Assembly (NCBI GenBank): GCA_025354865.1
Contig: JANXMB010000038.1
Span: 1-49,657 of the forward strand
Origin: Acetobacteraceae bacterium
Lineage (GTDB): Bacteria; Pseudomonadota; Alphaproteobacteria; Acetobacterales; Acetobacteraceae
Direction: 5' to 3'
DNA length: 49,657 bases
The notes beneath the pieces were generated by a model, which did no database searches, had not been told where the DNA came from, and worked only from the letters and a program-made list of their open reading frames with translations. Both the position numbers and the translations under genes were made by a program. Every line of letters begins with the position of its first letter. Position 1 is the stretch's first letter. This document shows positions 41,270 to 49,657 of this stretch, in pieces.

Positions 41270-42013
41270 TCAGGCTTTGCGGCGACGCGCCAGACCCAGG
41301 CCAAGCAGACCGGCGCCGAGCAACGCGAGGGAAGCGGGCTCCGGCGCTGATTCGTAGGTATAGGTGATCGAGACGTCCGCGCTGGCGTTGGTGGTTTGCC
41401 CGAACGAAAGATTGCCCGACCCGGTGAAGGAGGACAGAAGCCCATCGAGCGTCGTGATGTAGAAGGTCTGATTACCGGCACCGACCCATCCGCCCAGGTT
41501 GCTAAATCCAGCGCCGGCCGTCGTAATCGCCGTAGATGCCGCGCCGGTCGCATTGATGCTGCCCAGATTATAAGTGCCAACGTCAGCGTTGTACGTTGCG
41601 TCGGGCACGGGCAGGACGCCGACCGTATCGGTGACCAACCGGTTCGCGAAGAAATCGATTGCGGCCGGCGTACCGTTATCCGACGGGTTGACCAAGATGA
41701 CAAAAAGCTCCCCAACCGACCCCGTCGTGATCACGGTGCCATTGATGACGGTCAAGGTGCCAGTGCCGACCACTGTCGCGGACAATGAAATGTCGACCTT
41801 TGTCAGCATCTGACCGGCCAAATTGAACAGCGGAATCGACACCTGGCCCAACGTGTTGGACGAACCGATCCAGTCGGTGGACTTAGAGGCCTGCGTGTCC
41901 GTGTAGGTGACGGTGCCTGCGTGCACGGCGGTCGCATTTGCTGCAACCAGCAAAGCTGCACCGATTGCTAATCCACCAAAGCTCTTGACGTTGATCATTT
42001 CCATAACTTTCAT
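41270..42013 (-). CDS. PEP-CTERM sorting-domain surface protein, choice-of-anchor type
   Basis: A 247-residue exported protein. The N-terminal signal peptide (GGLAIGAALLVAANATAVHA) is cleaved near residue 32. The C-terminus APEPASLALLGAGLLGLGLARRRKA is a textbook PEP-CTERM signal: PEP, hydrophobic helix, Arg-rich tail, recognised by exosortase EpsH. The middle is beta-rich and Ser/Thr/Gly-rich. Exosortase is not in the window. Start choice among Met 1, 4 and 6 (42013, 42004, 41998) is uncertain. A consensus sigma-54 promoter lies 24-41 bp upstream. It follows the M50-fusion gene by 170 bp on the same strand. Confidence 0.92.
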   Translation of the reverse strand: MKVMEMINVKSFGGLAIGAALLVAANATAVHAGTVTYTDTQASKSTDWIGSSNTLGQVSIPLFNLAGQMLTKVDISLSATVVGTGTLTVINGTVITTGSVGELFVILVNPSDNGTPAAIDFFANRLVTDTVGVLPVPDATYNADVGTYNLGSINATGAASTAITTAGAGFSNLGGWVGAGNQTFYITTLDGLLSSFTGSGNLSFGQTTNASADVSITYTYESAPEPASLALLGAGLLGLGLARRRKA

Positions 42014-42183: not shown

Positions 42184-44316
42184 TCAAAGATCCGCCTCTC
42201 GAATAACGATCGCCGCGACGCGCCGGTACAGACGCAAGGCAATACTTTCGCGATCCGCCGCGATCCATACCGACCCCTGCAACCGTCGCACCGGCGCCGA
42301 ACCCTCGGCTTCGACCGCAAGGACCGTCGGATATACGGCATCGGCCGGCACGATCTTCCCGGCCGCATCTTTCCGGGTCGGCAGCGCCCCGCCGTAGACC
42401 GATGCCAGTTCCGCGGTCTCCAGCGTGCGAACCGACGCGGGGGAGACCGACACAACCCGCAGTTTTATCGGCTCTTCGCCGTTGGCCGGATAAAACAGCC
42501 CGGTTGCGCCGGGATGCACACGGGCGACATCGGCCTCCGGCACATAGGCCTCGACGATCGTGCGGTCGCCGGCAATCAGACGGCCCAGCGCCTCCCGCCG
42601 GGGGAGCCACTCGCCCGGCCGCAGCGACCGGGGCAGGTCGCGCATCGCGCCGGCGAAAGGCGCCCGCACCGCCAGGGCTTCCGACTGCGCTTCCAACGAT
42701 CGTTGCTCAGCCAATGCACGCAGCAATTCTTGCCAACTTTGTTCGAGCGTCGCCGCATTGTCGGGATCGAATGCCAATCCCTCGATCCGAGCACCCTGCG
42801 CCCGAATGGCGGCCCGCACGGCGAGCAGACGCGCGTCCAGCGACGGCGAATCGAGCAAAAAGATCGTCTGCCCCTCCGCCACGCGGGCGCCTTCGTCGAC
42901 TTTAGAGACGAGTCGGCCGGGTTCGTCGGTGTAGATCGTCGCCTCGCGTTCCGCTCGCAGCAGCCCGATCGCATCCACATGGCCCTGCCACGGCACCAGC
43001 AGGGCCGCGACCGCAGCAACCGTCGCCAGCCCGGTCGCCGCAGCGCGCGCGGTCAATGCCCGACGGCGCAACAAGCGGGACCAAACCCTGAATTCGGCGA
43101 AAAGCGGGCGCAGCACGAACCACCAGACCTCGATCCCCATTAGGAACAAGCCGAGCATTTTGAAGGTGAGGTGGTAGACCAGTGCGGCGATGCCGACGAA
43201 CAGGAAGAACCGGTAGGTCATCGCACACAGCGCGTACGCCAGCACCGCGCGCCGGATTTCCGGGCGGAATACCTCGGGCGGGGGTTCGCGCAGGCCGAAA
43301 AGTTGCTCCCGCAGCCACCACCGTGCATACGCAAACCCGCGTTCCTGCAAGTTCGGCAGATCGAGGAAATCCGACAACAAGTAGTATCCGTCGAACCGCA
43401 TCAACGGATTGCAGTTGACCGCGACCGTCACCAACCACGTGGAACTGGACAACAGAAACGCGGCGGTGCGCAGCGGCCCATCGGACAGCACCACCCAGGC
43501 GAGAGTGGCAAAAACCGCCAGCACGCACTCGGACGCCATGCCGGCCGCGTCGATCGCCATGCGCTGCCGCCGATCCGTCAACCGCCACGCGTCGGTCGTA
43601 TCGGTCCAAAGAATCGGCCACAGCACCATCAGGCCCAATCCCATCGCCGGCACGCGACAACCGAAATGCCGGGCGGTCAGTCCGTGCCCGAATTCGTGCA
43701 CCACCTTGGCACCCGCGAGCCCCAGTCCGACCAACACCATGCCATCCAACGAAAACAGCTCCAGCAGCCCGTGCCAATAGGCATCCCATTGCCGGCCGAC
43801 CAGATGCAAGGCGAGCACGGCGAGCATGGCAATCCCGACCGCGAAACCCCGCGTGTAAACCCAACCCAGATAGCGCAAGGCGGCCCGCAACAGCCGATCC
43901 GGGTTCAGTAGCCTGATCCGCAGGAACAAATAGTTCTTCAAAAGCCACGACCAGGCCGAAATCCGCCGCCCCGCCAGTTCCGCCGTCAGCCGCGCGGTGC
44001 CCTCCGCACCGTCGGGAGCCAGCAAGCCCGTGGCACCGAGGAACCGGTACGTCGCGACGACATCGGCCTCGGTCGCCTGGATCGTGGTTTCGTCGATGAC
44101 CGATTGCACGACCGCGTCGCTCCGCCGCAGCGACCAACGCGACAGGATTTCGAATTCCAGCCATCCGATGCGAAAAAAGCGATGGCGGGCGGGATCGTGG
44201 AGCGTCCATGTCGGCGATCCGTCGGCCGCCGTCGGGCCAGCCAGCAATTTCAAATCTTCCCGCAGCGGCGGGAGCGACGCCACCCGGCCGATCGCGGTAC
44301 TCACAGAGCCAACCAT
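42184..44316 (-). CDS. PqqD-like/M50 zinc protease/HlyD fusion protein
   Basis: A 710-residue membrane protein with three parts. Residues ~15-100 resemble a PqqD-like winged helix (RFFRIGWLEFEILSRW), a fold used to recognise peptides. Residues ~150-415 hold about eight membrane segments with the site-2 protease zinc motif HEFGHG (207-212) and the distal NPLMRFDGYY (303-312). Residues ~430-700 are a HlyD-type barrel-sandwich adaptor (RLVSKVDEGARVAEGQ, ALAVRAPFAG). The family should cut or shepherd a substrate in the membrane and link it to an outer channel. Last gene of the adaptor operon; starts 16 bp inside the preceding gene. Confidence 0.85.
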   Translation of the reverse strand: MVGSVSTAIGRVASLPPLREDLKLLAGPTAADGSPTWTLHDPARHRFFRIGWLEFEILSRWSLRRSDAVVQSVIDETTIQATEADVVATYRFLGATGLLAPDGAEGTARLTAELAGRRISAWSWLLKNYLFLRIRLLNPDRLLRAALRYLGWVYTRGFAVGIAMLAVLALHLVGRQWDAYWHGLLELFSLDGMVLVGLGLAGAKVVHEFGHGLTARHFGCRVPAMGLGLMVLWPILWTDTTDAWRLTDRRQRMAIDAAGMASECVLAVFATLAWVVLSDGPLRTAAFLLSSSTWLVTVAVNCNPLMRFDGYYLLSDFLDLPNLQERGFAYARWWLREQLFGLREPPPEVFRPEIRRAVLAYALCAMTYRFFLFVGIAALVYHLTFKMLGLFLMGIEVWWFVLRPLFAEFRVWSRLLRRRALTARAAATGLATVAAVAALLVPWQGHVDAIGLLRAEREATIYTDEPGRLVSKVDEGARVAEGQTIFLLDSPSLDARLLAVRAAIRAQGARIEGLAFDPDNAATLEQSWQELLRALAEQRSLEAQSEALAVRAPFAGAMRDLPRSLRPGEWLPRREALGRLIAGDRTIVEAYVPEADVARVHPGATGLFYPANGEEPIKLRVVSVSPASVRTLETAELASVYGGALPTRKDAAGKIVPADAVYPTVLAVEAEGSAPVRRLQGSVWIAADRESIALRLYRRVAAIVIREADL

Positions 44317-45629
44317 TGCCGCACCATCGCGATCGGACGACGGAGCAACCAGACCGCCAGCGATCGCTTCGGTCCGTAGATCTTGGCGCTGCCTCGCAAG
44401 CCCAAGCGCGGCAAAGCCGTACCGTCGAAACGCGCTCGGAATCGATAGGCCATCACGCCCTCGGATGTCATCGCACTGGCGTAACTGGCAAAATAGAGCT
44501 TCGCGGCGGATGGATGGTCCGGATCGACATTGCTGAAAAACAACACCTCCGATCCGGTATCGAAGGTGATCGCGTCGGCCGCCGGTACCTCGATCTCCAG
44601 TTCGACGCGAACCGGGGAGGCGATCTGCATAATCCGCTCGCCAAGCGCGACCGGCTTACCGATCCATTCGCTCGTGCCATCGAAAACCGCCAGTCCGTCG
44701 ATCGGGGCAACCATCTCCGCCCGGGCCAGCAACCCCTTGGCATAGGCCAACTCGGCGTCGGCTTGTTCCACCTTGCCCGACAACAGCGCCAGACGGGCCT
44801 TGGCGTTGAGGTCGTTCATCGCCTGCTGGGACGATACCTCGAACTCGGCACGCGCCATTTCCAGCGTCTTCTCCGCGACATCGCGCCGCGCGGTCAGTTG
44901 CGTCCGATCAAGGGTGATCAGCGGATCGCCCGCGTGTACCATCGCATTCGGCGCCACCAATATCTTGTCTACCACCCCTTCGAACGGCGCCCGCACCGGG
45001 GCGGGGTCGATCGATATCGCCTCGGCTGGCGCGATGGCGGACTGACGTACCCGGATCGTGAGGCTGAGGACGATCGCCAGCCCCGCCAAGGCCGCGAGCA
45101 CTGCCGGGCGCCCGCCCCAGGCGAGGGACAGGCGGCGTCGGCCGGGCAAGTCTGCCAACGCCAAACATTGCGTGTAGCAACCGCATACCACCGCCAGCAG
45201 TTGGGCATCGCCCTCGGTCCAGGGCTCGGCACGCCCGAGCAGGAGAACGCCGAGCAGTTGGCCGTCGCGACCGATAAGGGGGCACCATAAGGCGTGGGGC
45301 GGGAACCATTCAGCCCAGGCCTCGGCGATCGGGGCCGGCACCTCGGTCGCGGTGATCGAGTGGGTGGTGGTTGCTTGCCGACCGCGCCGTACGGCATCGA
45401 TCAGCCGCCCCATCCAATCGCGGTAGGGCGCGCCGGGATCGGCGGCGGCCACGCCGGACAGCACAAGGCGCTTCGGCGTCCACAACGCGGCCTGCCGATA
45501 CGGCAAAACCCCGACGGTTTCGTTCACGATCAGGAATTCGAGTTCGCGCGGGGGCAGCGAACGGGCCCGTTGCTCAAGCTGCAATAACGCCGACAGCCGC
45601 AACAATTGCTGATTGAGCGCGCCGCTCAT
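44301..45629 (-). CDS. HlyD-family adaptor with cytosolic GAF-like domain
   Basis: A 442-residue protein. Residues ~1-160 look like a GAF domain (LQLEQRARSLPPRELEFLIVNET, ALWCPLIGRDGQLLGVLLLG). One membrane helix follows (~175-194), then a periplasmic adaptor with the lipoyl-like halves VRAPFEGVVDKILVAPNAMVHAGD and MVAPIDGLAVF around a helical hairpin. An adaptor with a sensory-type cytosolic head is unusual and may gate export on a small ligand or partner. It starts 10 bp after the previous gene and overlaps the M50 fusion by 16 bp. Confidence 0.83.
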   Translation of the reverse strand: MSGALNQQLLRLSALLQLEQRARSLPPRELEFLIVNETVGVLPYRQAALWTPKRLVLSGVAAADPGAPYRDWMGRLIDAVRRGRQATTTHSITATEVPAPIAEAWAEWFPPHALWCPLIGRDGQLLGVLLLGRAEPWTEGDAQLLAVVCGCYTQCLALADLPGRRRLSLAWGGRPAVLAALAGLAIVLSLTIRVRQSAIAPAEAISIDPAPVRAPFEGVVDKILVAPNAMVHAGDPLITLDRTQLTARRDVAEKTLEMARAEFEVSSQQAMNDLNAKARLALLSGKVEQADAELAYAKGLLARAEMVAPIDGLAVFDGTSEWIGKPVALGERIMQIASPVRVELEIEVPAADAITFDTGSEVLFFSNVDPDHPSAAKLYFASYASAMTSEGVMAYRFRARFDGTALPRLGLRGSAKIYGPKRSLAVWLLRRPIAMVRQWLAL

Positions 45630-45639
45630 GGCGGGGCAG

Positions 45640-46437
45640 TCAGCGTCCGCTCGGCGGCGCGAGCAGTGCGCGCCCGCTCATGCCCGGTAACAGATCGCCG
45701 GCTGCGGACACGACATGGCTATACATCTTGATCGACCGGCTGACCGGATCGACCCGCCCGGACACGCGGTTGAGTTCGGCTTGATAGGTTTTCCCGGTCT
45801 CGTCGATCGTCGCATCGAAGCGCGTGCCCGGCTTCAGCCAACTCAGCCAGCGCGAGGGAACGATCATTTCCAGTTCCAGGTCGTTGTCGGACAAGATGTC
45901 GAGCATCGGCAGGCCCTGGGCAGCGTATTGATAACGGTGCACCGAGATGCTGGCGACGCGCCCGGCAAATGGCGCTGCCACTGTGCAATTTTCCACCATC
46001 GCCTGATTGATCGCCACTTCGGCATCCGCCTCGGCCACCTCGGCCACGGCGATATCGTACTCCAGGCCGGTGGAATTTCCCAGGCTGCGCAATTGCTGTT
46101 TATTGGTCAGGGTCCGCCGCTTCTCGGTCAGCCGAGCGCGGGCGTGCGCCAAAGCGCCGTCACGTTCGGCACAGACGAAACGCGCGAGAATCTGCCCTTT
46201 TTCGAACCGGTCGCCATCGCGCAGGGGAAACTCACTGAGGCGCCCGGCCATCGGTGCCCCGATCGCTGCGCTGGTCGTGGCCGCCACCTGCACCCGGATA
46301 TCGCGGATCGGCGATTCCACCGCGCGCGCCGGCTCCTGCGCCCGGGCCGATGCGGCGCCGAGCAGAGGAAGCACGAGCGCCAGCAGCAGCCGCAAGCGAA
46401 CGAACGGCGACTTTCCCGCCGTGGACAGAGGAATCAC
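45640..46437 (-). CDS. Periplasmic HlyD/RND-type adaptor
   Basis: A 265-residue adaptor with signal peptide (RLRLLLALVLPLLGAASARAQ). The lipoyl-like halves GAPMAGRLSEFPLRDGDRFEKGQ and CTVAAPFAGRVASISV flank a coiled-coil hairpin. The C-terminal beta-barrel and membrane-proximal regions are short. It should dock to the TolC protein coded just upstream. The start is GTG at 46437, overlapping the tolC-like stop (GTGA); longer frames upstream are shadows. It is one of three adaptor modules in the operon. Confidence 0.87.
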   Translation of the reverse strand: MIPLSTAGKSPFVRLRLLLALVLPLLGAASARAQEPARAVESPIRDIRVQVAATTSAAIGAPMAGRLSEFPLRDGDRFEKGQILARFVCAERDGALAHARARLTEKRRTLTNKQQLRSLGNSTGLEYDIAVAEVAEADAEVAINQAMVENCTVAAPFAGRVASISVHRYQYAAQGLPMLDILSDNDLELEMIVPSRWLSWLKPGTRFDATIDETGKTYQAELNRVSGRVDPVSRSIKMYSHVVSAAGDLLPGMSGRALLAPPSGR

Positions 46438-48068
46438 GAATCGGTGGGCGCGATGGGTTCCGGCAACACGACTTCGGGCGGCCGTCCGGCAACCCACGGC
46501 CCGATCGTGCGTCCAACACCTTCGGTGGCCTTGTCGAGATCGTCGATATCCAGCGACGGTGGCACGAGATCGACGCCGCAGCTGATATACAGGTTCACCA
46601 GCGCGGCCCGCGTCTTCACGACCGAGTGGTAATAGTTCAGCTCCGACAGCGCCAGCGTGAGTTCCTGGCGCACCCGCTCGGCGTCCGACAGCGAATCCGC
46701 CGCGCTGGCAGCCGCAGACGCTTTGCCGATTTTACGCTCGACTTCGAGCACGTCGCGCGCGGTGCGCATTTCGTCGGCGGTATTGCGGTATTGTTGGAAC
46801 GACAGATTTACCTGGCTGAGGATGGCGACGCTCAATGCCAGACGGCGGGTTTTGGTAACTTCCACCGTTTGCCGCGCGGTGGCGATCGCCCGCGGTCCGC
46901 GCACGATATTCGCCAGATTGAAGCTGGCCTGCACGCCGACGGCGCCCCAGGTGTTGTTGTAAAGATACTTGTTCGTATCATAGTTGAAATTCGCGAGAAT
47001 GCCGACGCCGGGAACCATTTTCATGATTTCCTTGTAAACATCCTGGCGGTCGATCTTCTCCTGATACGCTTCTTCCCGCAGCTCGGGGCGCAGCGCGAGG
47101 CCCAGCTCTTCCAGCTTATGCGCTTCGACCGACTTCGGCGGCGGGGCGATGTCCCAGCGCGTGTCGGACAGCGCGAGCGGCACCGTGCTCGGCATGGAGA
47201 TCAGGGTCGAAAGCTGCGCGTTGGCGTTGTTCAGATCGTTTTCCACGCGGCGCAGTTGACCGACAACCGACATCATCTCACGCTGGAATTCCAGCATGGG
47301 GCGATCCGGGGCCAATTGCCGCTTGTTCGCTTCCTGCGATGCCGCCAGCACTTTTTCCGAACGGGCGAGCAGCGGGCGAATGCGCGGCAGCATCTGCGCA
47401 GCGATCGCAGCGTTCCAATAGGATTCCTGCACCCGCTTCACGATGTCAGAAATTGTCCGGCGCCGACGTTCCACGGCGATGAAGGCCTGATAACCCTGCT
47501 GCTTGGCCTGCAAATAGCTCAGCCCGAGGTCGAGTACGGTCCAGGTGAATTCGGGGCCTGCCGTAAAATGCTGCGGTTCTTCCGAGAAGGCGTAATCCAG
47601 CGAAACCTGACGGGTCCGTTCGTTGATGCTTTGCGCAGCCGGATCGTTGCTACGCGCGTTGTAGCCGGCATTGAGCGCGAGGCGCGGCAACATGCCTGCC
47701 AAAGCCAGATCGAACTGGCGTTCCTGCAACGACGACTGCTGCCGATCCAGCTCGGCATCGTAATTGTATTTCAGCGCGCGGGCCAACACTTCCGCCAGGG
47801 AAAGCGGATGATCGATCGGCGCCTCGTTCCGGAAGATTTTTTTATAATCCTCCTGCGCGCGACCTACATGTTGGCCTGGGGTTATGGCTTCGGGCTTGAC
47901 AGCGCATGCCGCTGCGAGAAGCGCCAATAAGCTGGCTCGCGCCACCTTACCGACGGTAGCGGCCGACAGGCGAGGCCCGGAAGGGCCCGTTATCGAGGGG
48001 GCAAGAGAGCTCCTGGTCACGCGAGATCCTTCCTTGGAACAGGCCGAGTCGTTTGTTTGCACATTCAT
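46434..48068 (-). CDS. TolC-family outer membrane channel protein
   Basis: A 544-residue outer-membrane efflux protein. After a signal (ARASLLALLAAACAVKP, with a near-lipobox AAAC that may mark a lipoprotein) come two repeats of the TolC coiled-coil/strand pattern: LSLAEVLARALKYNYDAEL, then RPELREEAYQEKIDRQDVYKE and ALSVAILSQVNLSFQQYR. It should form a trimeric tunnel. ATG 48068 overlaps the repeat-protein stop by one base (TAATG), so translation is coupled, tying the channel to that substrate. A longer frame extending to 48263 is a shadow. Confidence 0.9.
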   Translation of the reverse strand: MNVQTNDSACSKEGSRVTRSSLAPSITGPSGPRLSAATVGKVARASLLALLAAACAVKPEAITPGQHVGRAQEDYKKIFRNEAPIDHPLSLAEVLARALKYNYDAELDRQQSSLQERQFDLALAGMLPRLALNAGYNARSNDPAAQSINERTRQVSLDYAFSEEPQHFTAGPEFTWTVLDLGLSYLQAKQQGYQAFIAVERRRRTISDIVKRVQESYWNAAIAAQMLPRIRPLLARSEKVLAASQEANKRQLAPDRPMLEFQREMMSVVGQLRRVENDLNNANAQLSTLISMPSTVPLALSDTRWDIAPPPKSVEAHKLEELGLALRPELREEAYQEKIDRQDVYKEIMKMVPGVGILANFNYDTNKYLYNNTWGAVGVQASFNLANIVRGPRAIATARQTVEVTKTRRLALSVAILSQVNLSFQQYRNTADEMRTARDVLEVERKIGKASAAASAADSLSDAERVRQELTLALSELNYYHSVVKTRAALVNLYISCGVDLVPPSLDIDDLDKATEGVGRTIGPWVAGRPPEVVLPEPIAPTDS

Positions 48069-49657
48069 TATCCGACTCGCCCGGCTATACTCGCCATCAT
48101 ATCCAACATAGCGCGCGCCTGAGCAAGCTGCCCCATGCGGCTTGCACGGTGCAATTGCGATGTAAATGCCGACCGCCCCTCGAGAATTTGGGTCGGTGGG
48201 TCGAACGCCGGCGGCAGCATCGAGGTTTCCGCCATACGGGCAAACCCGCTCGGGTCTGCCCAAGGCGCAAGCAAAGGCCGATGTTCCGCCGTTCGTCTGG
48301 CGAATTGATCGACGGCGTTTCGGATCGCGTCGCGCAACGCCTGGCTGTTGAGTTGTTCCAGAAGCGTGCTGGTATCGTCGCCGATATCGGGCGGCAGGCC
48401 CCGTTCGACGCCGGTGTCGGCAGCAGCGGATCCGAATACCGATACGTCGATAAAGGTCTGGTTGCCCTTGTTGTCCCGCACGACCACGATGATCTCGAGC
48501 GGCGTTTTCAGCGGAGTCGGCGGTTGCCCGCTGAAGCTCTTGGTTGCCGGGTCGAAAATGAGCCAGGACGGCACCGACCCGCCATCGGCGTTCCGCGCTT
48601 CGACATACAACTGCCGTGCTTCGGCCACTGCACCAAACATCAGAATGCCGGAGGGCCGGTTGACGAGCTGGACGACCACCCCTTCGATCGCCGTCGCGCT
48701 GCCCCCAGAGGCCAGCACGATGGGCGTGCCGACATTGGTAAGCTGGGTAATGGTCTCCCCCGAGGGCGTCACAACCGCAACTTGATACGAACCCGGCGTC
48801 AACCCAGTGAAGGTGATGTTGCCGTTCGCGTCGGTCGTGCCGACAACCGGCACACCGCCCACGACCACCGGGTTGCCGCTGCCATCGAGCAATTTGACCG
48901 TCGCGCCCGGCAAGTTGGTATCGCCGGTATTCTGCGTGCTGTCGGCGTTGTTGTCGGTATAGACATGGGTGGTGAACGACGCCGGCGCGTAAAGCCCCTC
49001 GATCGCGGTCGCCGAACCGCCCGATGTCAAAACGACCGGGGTGGAGACGTTTGTATGCTGCGTCACCGTGTCGCCCGTGGGGGTCACGACCGCGATTTGA
49101 TAGGTCCCGGGCGGCAGGCCCGTGAAGCTGACATTGCCGCTGCTGTCGGTCGTGCCGGTCACCGGAACGCCCCCGACCAAGACCGGATCGCCGCTACCAC
49201 TCAACAATTCGACGGTGACGCCGGGCAAGTTGGGATCGCCGCCGTTCTGGGTGCTGTTCGCATTGTTGTCGGTGTAGACGTGAGCGGTGAAGGTCGCGGG
49301 GACGTAGACGCCCTCGACCGCACTGGCGGAACCGCCGGGACCCAACACGATCGGGGTGGAGACATTGGTGTGCTCCGTCACCGTGTCGCCCGAGGGCGTT
49401 ACGACCGCCACCTGATACGTCCCTGGCGGCAGGCCGGTGAAGCTGACATTGCCGTTGCCATCCGTCGTCCCGGTGATGGCAACGCCGCCCGAGGTCACCG
49501 GATTGCCAGACCCATCCAGCAACCGCACCGTTACGCCGGGCAGATTGGGATCGGTGCCGTCCTGCGTGTTGTTGCCGGTTGTGTCGGTATAGACGTGGGC
49601 GGTGAAGGTCGCGGGGACGTAGACGCCCTCGACTGCGCTGGCGGAACCGCCGGAACT
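48068..49657 (-). CDS. SdrD-like repeat surface protein (N-terminus beyond window)
   Basis: About 529 C-terminal residues are visible. Three full copies and one partial copy of a 105-residue beta-sandwich repeat (FTxHVYTDNNAxSTQN, LPGVTVELL, GNVSFTGLPPGTYQVAVVTP) match SdrD/Cna-B-type prealbumin-like domains. A putative Ig-like domain follows (PSWLIFDPATKSFSGQPP), then a ~130-residue helical tail. No LPXTG, PEP-CTERM or RTX motif is seen. It is the first visible gene of the export operon and probably its substrate. The true start lies right of the window. Confidence 0.85.
   Translation of the reverse strand, partial: SSGGSASAVEGVYVPATFTAHVYTDTTGNNTQDGTDPNLPGVTVRLLDGSGNPVTSGGVAITGTTDGNGNVSFTGLPPGTYQVAVVTPSGDTVTEHTNVSTPIVLGPGGSASAVEGVYVPATFTAHVYTDNNANSTQNGGDPNLPGVTVELLSGSGDPVLVGGVPVTGTTDSSGNVSFTGLPPGTYQIAVVTPTGDTVTQHTNVSTPVVLTSGGSATAIEGLYAPASFTTHVYTDNNADSTQNTGDTNLPGATVKLLDGSGNPVVVGGVPVVGTTDANGNITFTGLTPGSYQVAVVTPSGETITQLTNVGTPIVLASGGSATAIEGVVVQLVNRPSGILMFGAVAEARQLYVEARNADGGSVPSWLIFDPATKSFSGQPPTPLKTPLEIIVVVRDNKGNQTFIDVSVFGSAAADTGVERGLPPDIGDDTSTLLEQLNSQALRDAIRNAVDQFARRTAEHRPLLAPWADPSGFARMAETSMLPPAFDPPTQILEGRSAFTSQLHRASRMGQLAQARAMLDMMASIAGRVG
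48665..49657 (-). repeat. 315-bp tandem coding repeats
   Basis: The unit of 315 bp (105 codons) recurs with landmarks at 48971, 49286 and 49601. Copies are highly similar at DNA level near the window edge, suggesting recent duplication or conversion. Three complete units and the start of another are visible. Confidence 0.9.

Follow-up and report, generated by a model that had tools for sequence, protein, structure and literature searches.

A five-gene locus in an Acetobacteraceae contig

The window analysed here is the whole of contig C17 of an Acetobacteraceae bacterium (49657 of 49657 bases), one end of which carries five genes that may encode a dedicated exporter together with its giant surface-protein cargo. 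The listing of open reading frames (ORFs) places all five on the minus strand between positions 42184 and 49657. From right to left, they code for a repeat-containing surface protein, a TolC-family channel, an HlyD-type adaptor, an adaptor with a GAF head (GAF-HlyD) and a fusion of an M50 peptidase with an HlyD part (M50-HlyD; Table 1). Their coordinates and Pfam matches bear out an earlier note on this DNA, which had described five minus-strand genes with tight overlaps. Indeed, the genes overlap or almost touch: the GAF-HlyD and M50-HlyD genes share 16 bases, the TolC stop codon adjoins the GTG of the HlyD gene at 46437, and the stop codon of the surface-protein gene and the ATG start of the TolC gene both lie at 48068. 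The HlyD ORF reaches 46497, the GTG at 46437 being the preferred start; its product has a hydrophobic N-terminus and matches TIGR01730 with 102 bits (cut-off 94.9). The N-terminus of the TolC protein resembles, by eye, a lipoprotein signal. Because the window is an entire contig, it holds just the C-terminal part of the surface protein.

Table 1. Features of the export locus and of its proteins
Feature	Position	Strand	Description
Surface protein, C-terminal 529 amino acids	48068..49657	-	SdrD_B/SpaA repeats; open at contig end
Conserved C-terminal tail of the surface protein	48071..48181	-	begins EGRSAFTSQLHRASRMGQLAQARAML
TolC-family outer-membrane channel	46434..48068	-	PF02321 (OEP), two stretches, E 9.8e-24
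HlyD/RND-type adaptor, periplasmic	45640..46437	-	Pfam HlyD_3 and HlyD_D23
GAF-HlyD adaptor	44301..45629	-	442 amino acids; Pfam HlyD_3 and HlyD_D23
GAF-HlyD layout			GAF at residues ~1-160, membrane helix at ~169-191 (hydropathy), HlyD after
M50-HlyD fusion	42184..44316	-	710 amino acids; Pfam Peptidase_M50 and HlyD_3
PqqD-like head of the M50 fusion	44017..44274	-	residues ~15-100; proposed leader reader
HEFGH metalloprotease motif	43684..43698	-	residues 207-211; paired with NPLMRFDGYY, around D309
HlyD-type periplasmic part of the M50 fusion	42247..42987	-	HlyD_3; best PDB matches by Foldseek MacA and MexA

The N-terminal part of the surface protein

The search for an N-terminus beyond the window, as proposed in the earlier note, led to the end of contig C45 of the same genome (locus L204), which holds the sole match to DUF4347 (PF14252) in this genome (151.1 bits versus a gathering score of 24.6). 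The ORF concerned reads MKLVLEPRYLFDGSLAAVTKP, DUF4347 and SdrD_B repeats in that order, before it runs off the contig end. The ends of C45 and C17 carry the same kind of repeat array and share 484 bases of repeat DNA at 91%, as is expected if the array broke the assembly. Because relatives display the same order, the repeats are shared and the DUF4347 match is the only one, the C45 ORF and the surface ORF of the window, on contigs that are unjoined, are likely the same gene. The probable N-terminal part carries the tag MKLVLEPRYLFDGS, DUF4347 and repeats. The former description of the cargo as an SdrD-like surface protein holds for the repeats and is too narrow for the protein as a whole, in view of this DUF4347 part. 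The label LEPR-8K (NF012209) was rejected for the tag of this strain, as its score lies below the cut-off in the genome of the window (0 of 1 at E 0.001).

Side observations on DUF4347 concern its motifs. In L131, L133, L135 and other DUF4347 proteins, the domain has SHG and GC motifs reminiscent of a His/Cys pair of the caspase/CHAT-like type; a strict regular expression matched 57 of 112 distinct ORFs, some rows being stray. Loci from Acetobacteraceae and Trinickia have Tyr in place of this His.

An N-terminal tag and a C-terminal tail

The tag has the consensus L-E-x-R-x-[LMV]-[FLY]-[DS]-[GA] and is found at or soon after the ORF start. Relatives have it in the form LExRx[LMV][FLY]D[GA]. 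Among ORFs of at least 250 amino acids, 23 distinct matches were retrieved, all near the N-terminal end: 20 in surface genes of loci with the M50-HlyD fusion, one in an ORF of L035, which stops early and is followed five bases on by another ORF, and two in loci fetched through LEPR-8K (L102 and L103). Column counts were made over 96 distinct N-termini, in which L, E and R are set by the regular expression itself. In eight loci of Komagataeibacter, Gluconacetobacter and Acetobacter, the surface protein lies on the opposite strand and its tag reads LEQRYLFDGS.

Furthermore, the other end of the protein is conserved. The usual C-terminal tail follows the pattern [LF][ST]xQLxxA, and the regular expression [LFMIV][STA]xQ[LVFIM] matched within the C-terminal 85 residues in 36 of 52 distinct ORFs from relatives, compared with 78 of 1000 windows drawn at random from these proteins. 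By eye, several of the 16 ORFs without a match either are spurious frames or deviate slightly from the pattern, as in SFSGRLAA. In L215 and L235, W[RK]xxDPL preceded by a hydrophobic stretch takes the place of this tail.

Conservation of the locus and its flanking genes

A search of the genome contigs for the M50-HlyD fusion yielded 68 distinct loci. The TolC, HlyD, GAF-HlyD and M50-HlyD genes occur together in 57 of these, which is a count of gene order and not an independent search, because the profiles were trained on those same loci. In 56 of the 57, the genes have that order on one strand; the exception is L095, in which the chosen ORFs overlap. Six incomplete loci are cut at contig ends (L044, L048, L066, L070, L082 and L085).

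Flanking ORFs that do not match the five proteins of the window were clustered by blast, which gave a group of large proteins in 28 loci (an example begins MRLILEQRYLFDGS) and two further groups of five loci each, one of them consisting of ABC (ATP-binding cassette) proteins at scattered positions. Besides the surface protein, no flanking family was present in more than five loci. In four of the 68 loci (L037, L069, L084 and L088), a motif scan detected ABC-like genes no more than 5 kb from the operon; the clustering adds L045. The gene of L088 is ABC-F-like, that of L045 is ABC-F-like below the curated cut-off and that of L069 resembles the carbon-phosphorus lyase proteins PhnL/PhnK; the family scan covered these three of the five loci. 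Upstream of the tagged gene, over up to 6 kb in 30 loci (128 ORFs), a regular expression found no ABC protein, and no family is shared by more than two among these 30 loci and the genome of the window. In the latter genome, C45 carries an import-type ABC pair (LivG/LivF-like by eye) upstream of the tagged gene and separated from it by other ORFs. An ABC gene beyond the contig edge was rejected as a conserved feature on this upstream scan, and an MFS-like (major facilitator superfamily) gene seen by eye upstream of the surface gene of this strain is not common to the 30 loci. The five-gene synteny without an ATPase, anticipated by the earlier note, is thus borne out for the apparatus, on plasmids as well (see below); neither an ABC gene past the edge nor a regular pairing of homologues with such a gene, which would have refuted the proposal of the note, was found.

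Type I secretion in trans, with an ABC exporter encoded elsewhere in the genome (possibly one of the universal ABC proteins) powering the apparatus, is quite improbable. An LssB-type exporter model, with 20 candidates scored per genome, matches in all 43 genomes with the M50 gene that were searched (E <= 1e-20), and 19 of these possess a LapB/LssB-type exporter over the curated cut-off, as would suit such an arrangement. Against this, 24 of the 43, including the genome of the window, have none over that cut-off, and no ABC neighbour is conserved.

Co-occurrence of apparatus and cargo

Among 398 Pseudomonadota genomes, M50-HlyD was found in 90 at E <= 1e-30, of which 77 scored below 1e-150 (strong M50-HlyD), and DUF4347 in 93. 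Both strong M50-HlyD and DUF4347 were present in 70 genomes (Fisher p 4e-49). Similarly, 39 of the 40 genomes with LEPR-8K contain M50-HlyD of either of two clades (p 9e-28), both p-values overstating independence because the genomes are related. The second clade is defined by a band of profile E-values (~1e-107 to 1e-38) and not by a tree; LEPR-8K is present in 16 of the 21 genomes that gave second-clade rows. As two candidates were scored per genome, extra M50 copies can be hidden. In the phylum of the Desulfuromonas locus L073, M50-HlyD occurs at E 1e-50 in 21 of 395 genomes, again with two candidates scored per genome.

The tag, too, goes with the apparatus. When DUF4347 ORFs of the best-scoring loci were compared, the regular expression found the tag in 25 of 28 from genomes with strong M50-HlyD versus 4 of 30 from other genomes. 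L200, from the former set, reads LEPRLLFAGD and falls outside the expression. Of the four tagged ORFs elsewhere, two belong to G373 (57% complete) and one each to G370 and G329, which have a second-clade M50 gene. Untagged DUF4347 proteins show other ends by eye, namely an RTX-like C-terminus in L219, a glycine-rich hydrophobic C-terminus in L220 and, in L221, a barrel-like end combined with a start that resembles a signal peptide. DUF4347 was rejected as the export signal, because different export features can accompany it and the tag is also found without it. The untagged DUF4347 proteins of L250, L251 and L263 start MARASEILFVDPSVSDL, with the domain at the extreme N-terminus.

In addition, the tag comes in two flavours. 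The divergent second-clade M50 accompanies a second tag, LExRxLLSAD, which is that of LEPR-8K, and second-clade cargo matches LEPR-8K, while much of the first-clade cargo matches DUF4347. Of 30 LEPR-8K loci listed, eight have a second-clade M50 gene on the same contig at a distance of at most 41 kb, and the tags of all eight end in LLSAD, LLSAE, MLSAD or LLNSD. With L215 and L226 added, the position that separates the flavours is S or N in 10 of 10 second-clade loci (four by eye; the flavour regular expression, which permitted only D, S, N or A there, counted six of the ten) and D in 47 of 48 first-clade tags, the exception LEARVAMNAG (L042) looking unrelated. The tie between flavour and clade is imperfect, because a first-clade M50 gene stands 22 kb away from an LEPR-8K tag ending in SGE (G286:C42), and the tag of L241 (G234, with its second-clade M50 gene on another contig) reads LEPRMLFAAD, outside the expression. 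The match of tag flavour and M50 clade fits co-evolution of the tag with its putative reader, without proving contact. Open frames reach up to 19,427 amino acids among the LEPR-8K matches listed.

Mobility and distribution

The unit also occurs on plasmids. On the Escherichia coli plasmid NZ_CP081687.1 (69 kb, typed IncFIA,IncFIB; L296 and L299), the five-gene unit is complete and in order, flanked upstream by an IS5-like insertion sequence gene and downstream by an IS1-like one, and its substrate of 4459 amino acids starts MTTIKNRRLRPRAHRFALESRQLFDGAAL. Of 5426 E. coli genomes, 24 hold the M50 gene, the match covering 80% or more of its length in 22 of them, and 21 of 25 places are on plasmids. 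The same gene order is present on a plasmid of Burkholderia anthina, which is typed as conjugative and has an annotated DUF4347 protein, and the same ORF order on the unannotated megaplasmid of Cupriavidus metallidurans CH34.

Domains of the M50-HlyD fusion and of the GAF-HlyD adaptor

An AlphaFold2 model of the M50-HlyD fusion (26-sequence input; predicted local distance difference test score, pLDDT, 84.5; predicted template modelling score, pTM, 0.63), a check that had been suggested beforehand, displays an N-terminal head of three strands and three helices, followed by a membrane part made of helices and by an HlyD part. Over residues 23-95, the head comprises strands 23-27, 36-41 and 46-50 and helices 52-59, 66-76 and 83-95, and its residues R19, G33, P35, W37 and D41 do not vary among the 26 members aligned. 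By sequence, PF05402 (PqqD) reaches just one of the 26 members (E 0.021), and PDB sequence profiles gave no match to the head up to E 10. The head is predicted to be PqqD-like, weakly so by sequence and with a modelled topology that agrees with the fold of PqqD and of recognition elements for ribosomally synthesized and post-translationally modified peptides (RiPPs). The earlier proposal that a PqqD-like head recognises a peptide has gained a candidate ligand, the N-terminal LExRxLFD tag.

The fusion has the hallmarks of M50 peptidases, namely HExxH and a second motif with Asp, with PF02163 over its cut-off in the protein of the window and matching every one of 26 members at an E-value of 1 or below; H207, E208, H211, N301, P304, D309, G310 and Y311 are invariant in all 26. 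These invariant active-site motifs would also suit a maturation or retention device, in which the fusion clips, and TolC and HlyD hold, a protein exported by another route. LapA-type adhesins, with their periplasmic protease and retained N-terminus, offer a precedent. Such a device is very unlikely, in that the tagged proteins that were read show no other export signal by eye and several untagged DUF4347 proteins do.

In the GAF-HlyD model (pLDDT 89.1, pTM 0.49), a membrane helix stands between an alpha/beta head and an HlyD part, the latter matching MacA/MexA by Foldseek. PF01590 recognises the GAF domain in 9 of 25 GAF-HlyD members (best 9.9e-7). Foldseek is uninformative on the PqqD-like, M50 and GAF parts, because the 50 matches listed per model are adaptors.

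Proposed export mechanism

Taken together, the locus may encode a dedicated TolC-dependent exporter of leader-tagged giant surface proteins, in which M50-HlyD reads the tag; the probability of this reading is put at roughly 60%. Gene content, the tag and their association are direct sequence observations, from which the following steps of binding, cleavage, route and energy are proposed as a model. Firstly, the PqqD-like head of the fusion would bind the tag in the cytoplasm, RiPP recognition elements being binders of leader peptides. Secondly, the M50 membrane domain would gate or clip the leader at the inner membrane. Thirdly, the three HlyD parts and TolC may form the conduit, the assembly or opening of which could be regulated by the GAF domain. 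Lastly, energy would come from outside the operon, either as proton-motive force, from a shared housekeeping motor or from folding outside the cell. A wider claim is advanced tentatively, at somewhat less than even odds: this would be a distinct Gram-negative protein secretion system lacking both a dedicated ATPase and a known pump, in which the PqqD-like/M50/HlyD protein, on reading an LExRx(L/F)(D/S) leader, opens the TolC conduit to giant proteins. Two apparatus clades would then have co-evolved with two leader flavours, and the set would move on plasmids.

The earlier note had the substrate cross the inner membrane by Sec, a model in which the M50-HlyD/TolC set handles outer-membrane passage and trimming. 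This step is left unsupported, as no ordinary signal peptide was seen by eye in the tagged N-termini and the DUF4347 proteins with signal-like starts are untagged. Sec being universal, a mobile unit of five genes could rely on it, and 10 of 96 tagged N-termini are hydrophobic after the tag (15-residue mean of at least 1.8), which would favour that route. On the other hand, the charged E, R and usually D of the tag occupy the place of the hydrophobic core of a signal peptide, and M stands exactly four residues ahead of the tag in 10 of the 23 tagged ORFs. The mean best 15-mer of the 96 tagged N-termini scores 1.06, and five signal-like DUF4347 relatives, all without the tag, score 1.45-1.91 on the same scale, a range that does not by itself separate the groups. 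Hydrophobicity was dropped as a test against Sec, since the overlap of these ranges permits no clean exclusion. All in all, passage by Sec is considered unlikely, yet the least unlikely of the alternatives.

Several observations weigh against a dedicated tag-reading exporter. No source of energy was found for it. The hydrophobic stretches after ten of the tags are of this kind too, and the PqqD assignment leans on fold topology and one weak profile match. As to gene content, L076, L099 and L100 have no TolC gene beside HlyD, and L056 and L060 hold just GAF-HlyD and M50-HlyD, in each case despite enough upstream DNA; HlyD has a giant ORF as its immediate neighbour in L076 and L099. As to co-occurrence, 7 of the 77 genomes with strong M50-HlyD lack a DUF4347 match. 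Five of these seven show a tagged large ORF beside the operon (L206, L209, L227, L228 and L229), and no tagged gene was seen in the fetched stretches of the other two (G243 and G387). Furthermore, the LEPR-8K genome G396 (86% complete) has no M50-HlyD match, L173 and L175 are untagged DUF4347 ORFs in genomes with strong M50-HlyD, and the second-clade genomes G471 and G370 also hold untagged ones (L253 and L261).

Comparison with known systems

Type I secretion systems (HlyBD-TolC and LapBCE) share with this locus an HlyD-type adaptor, TolC and a giant repeat cargo. They differ in that the present operon lacks an ABC ATPase and possesses an N-terminal tag, an M50-fused adaptor and two further adaptors. 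As regards a C-terminal signal of the type I kind, no RTX family was found in the part of the surface protein held by the window, and the conserved C-terminal tail is present. The efflux pumps MacAB-TolC, AcrAB-TolC and EmrAB-TolC have in common with the locus the adaptor fold (MacA and MexA by Foldseek) and TolC, whereas the operon lacks MacB and a pump of the RND (resistance-nodulation-division) or MFS type, and its cargo is a giant protein. No pump family was found in six window proteins scanned or in widely shared flanks, the rest of the genome being unsearched for pumps. The M50 peptidases of RiPP pathways (YydH/LiaK and those of daptides) share the M50 domain with HExxH. Indeed, NF041824 matches residues 42-395 of the fusion, with 164 bits versus a curated cut-off of 300, and a second daptide/YydH NCBIfam model scores 23 bits versus 225. 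They differ from the present M50 domain, which is fused to HlyD and of which the proposed cargo is a giant protein instead of a small peptide. Finally, LEPR-8K/LEPR-XLL (NF012209) and DUF4347 (PF14252) are domain names for parts of the cargo and not for an export apparatus.

In agreement with the earlier note, which knew of no such system, this architecture is undescribed in the full-text literature searched (preprints and most subscription papers being outside its scope), in which no export route for the tagged giant ORFs was found either. The passages seen of two papers describe a giant Vibrio protein with an N-terminal LEPR-XLL and C-terminal RTX and serralysin domains (PMC10868602) and a DUF4347 protein, BTH_II1339, that is raised in stationary phase in Burkholderia thailandensis (PMC12322963); these passages contain no link to M50-HlyD. 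If the proposed export is true, DUF4347 and LEPR-8K proteins gain a common exporter and a testable leader, and PqqD-like/M50 proteins a role beyond RiPP maturation. It would also sharpen the question of energy, namely how a giant protein crosses two membranes without a dedicated motor.

Downstream of the M50-HlyD gene, the minus strand of the window (41273-42013) encodes a PEP-CTERM protein with a choice-of-anchor E match.

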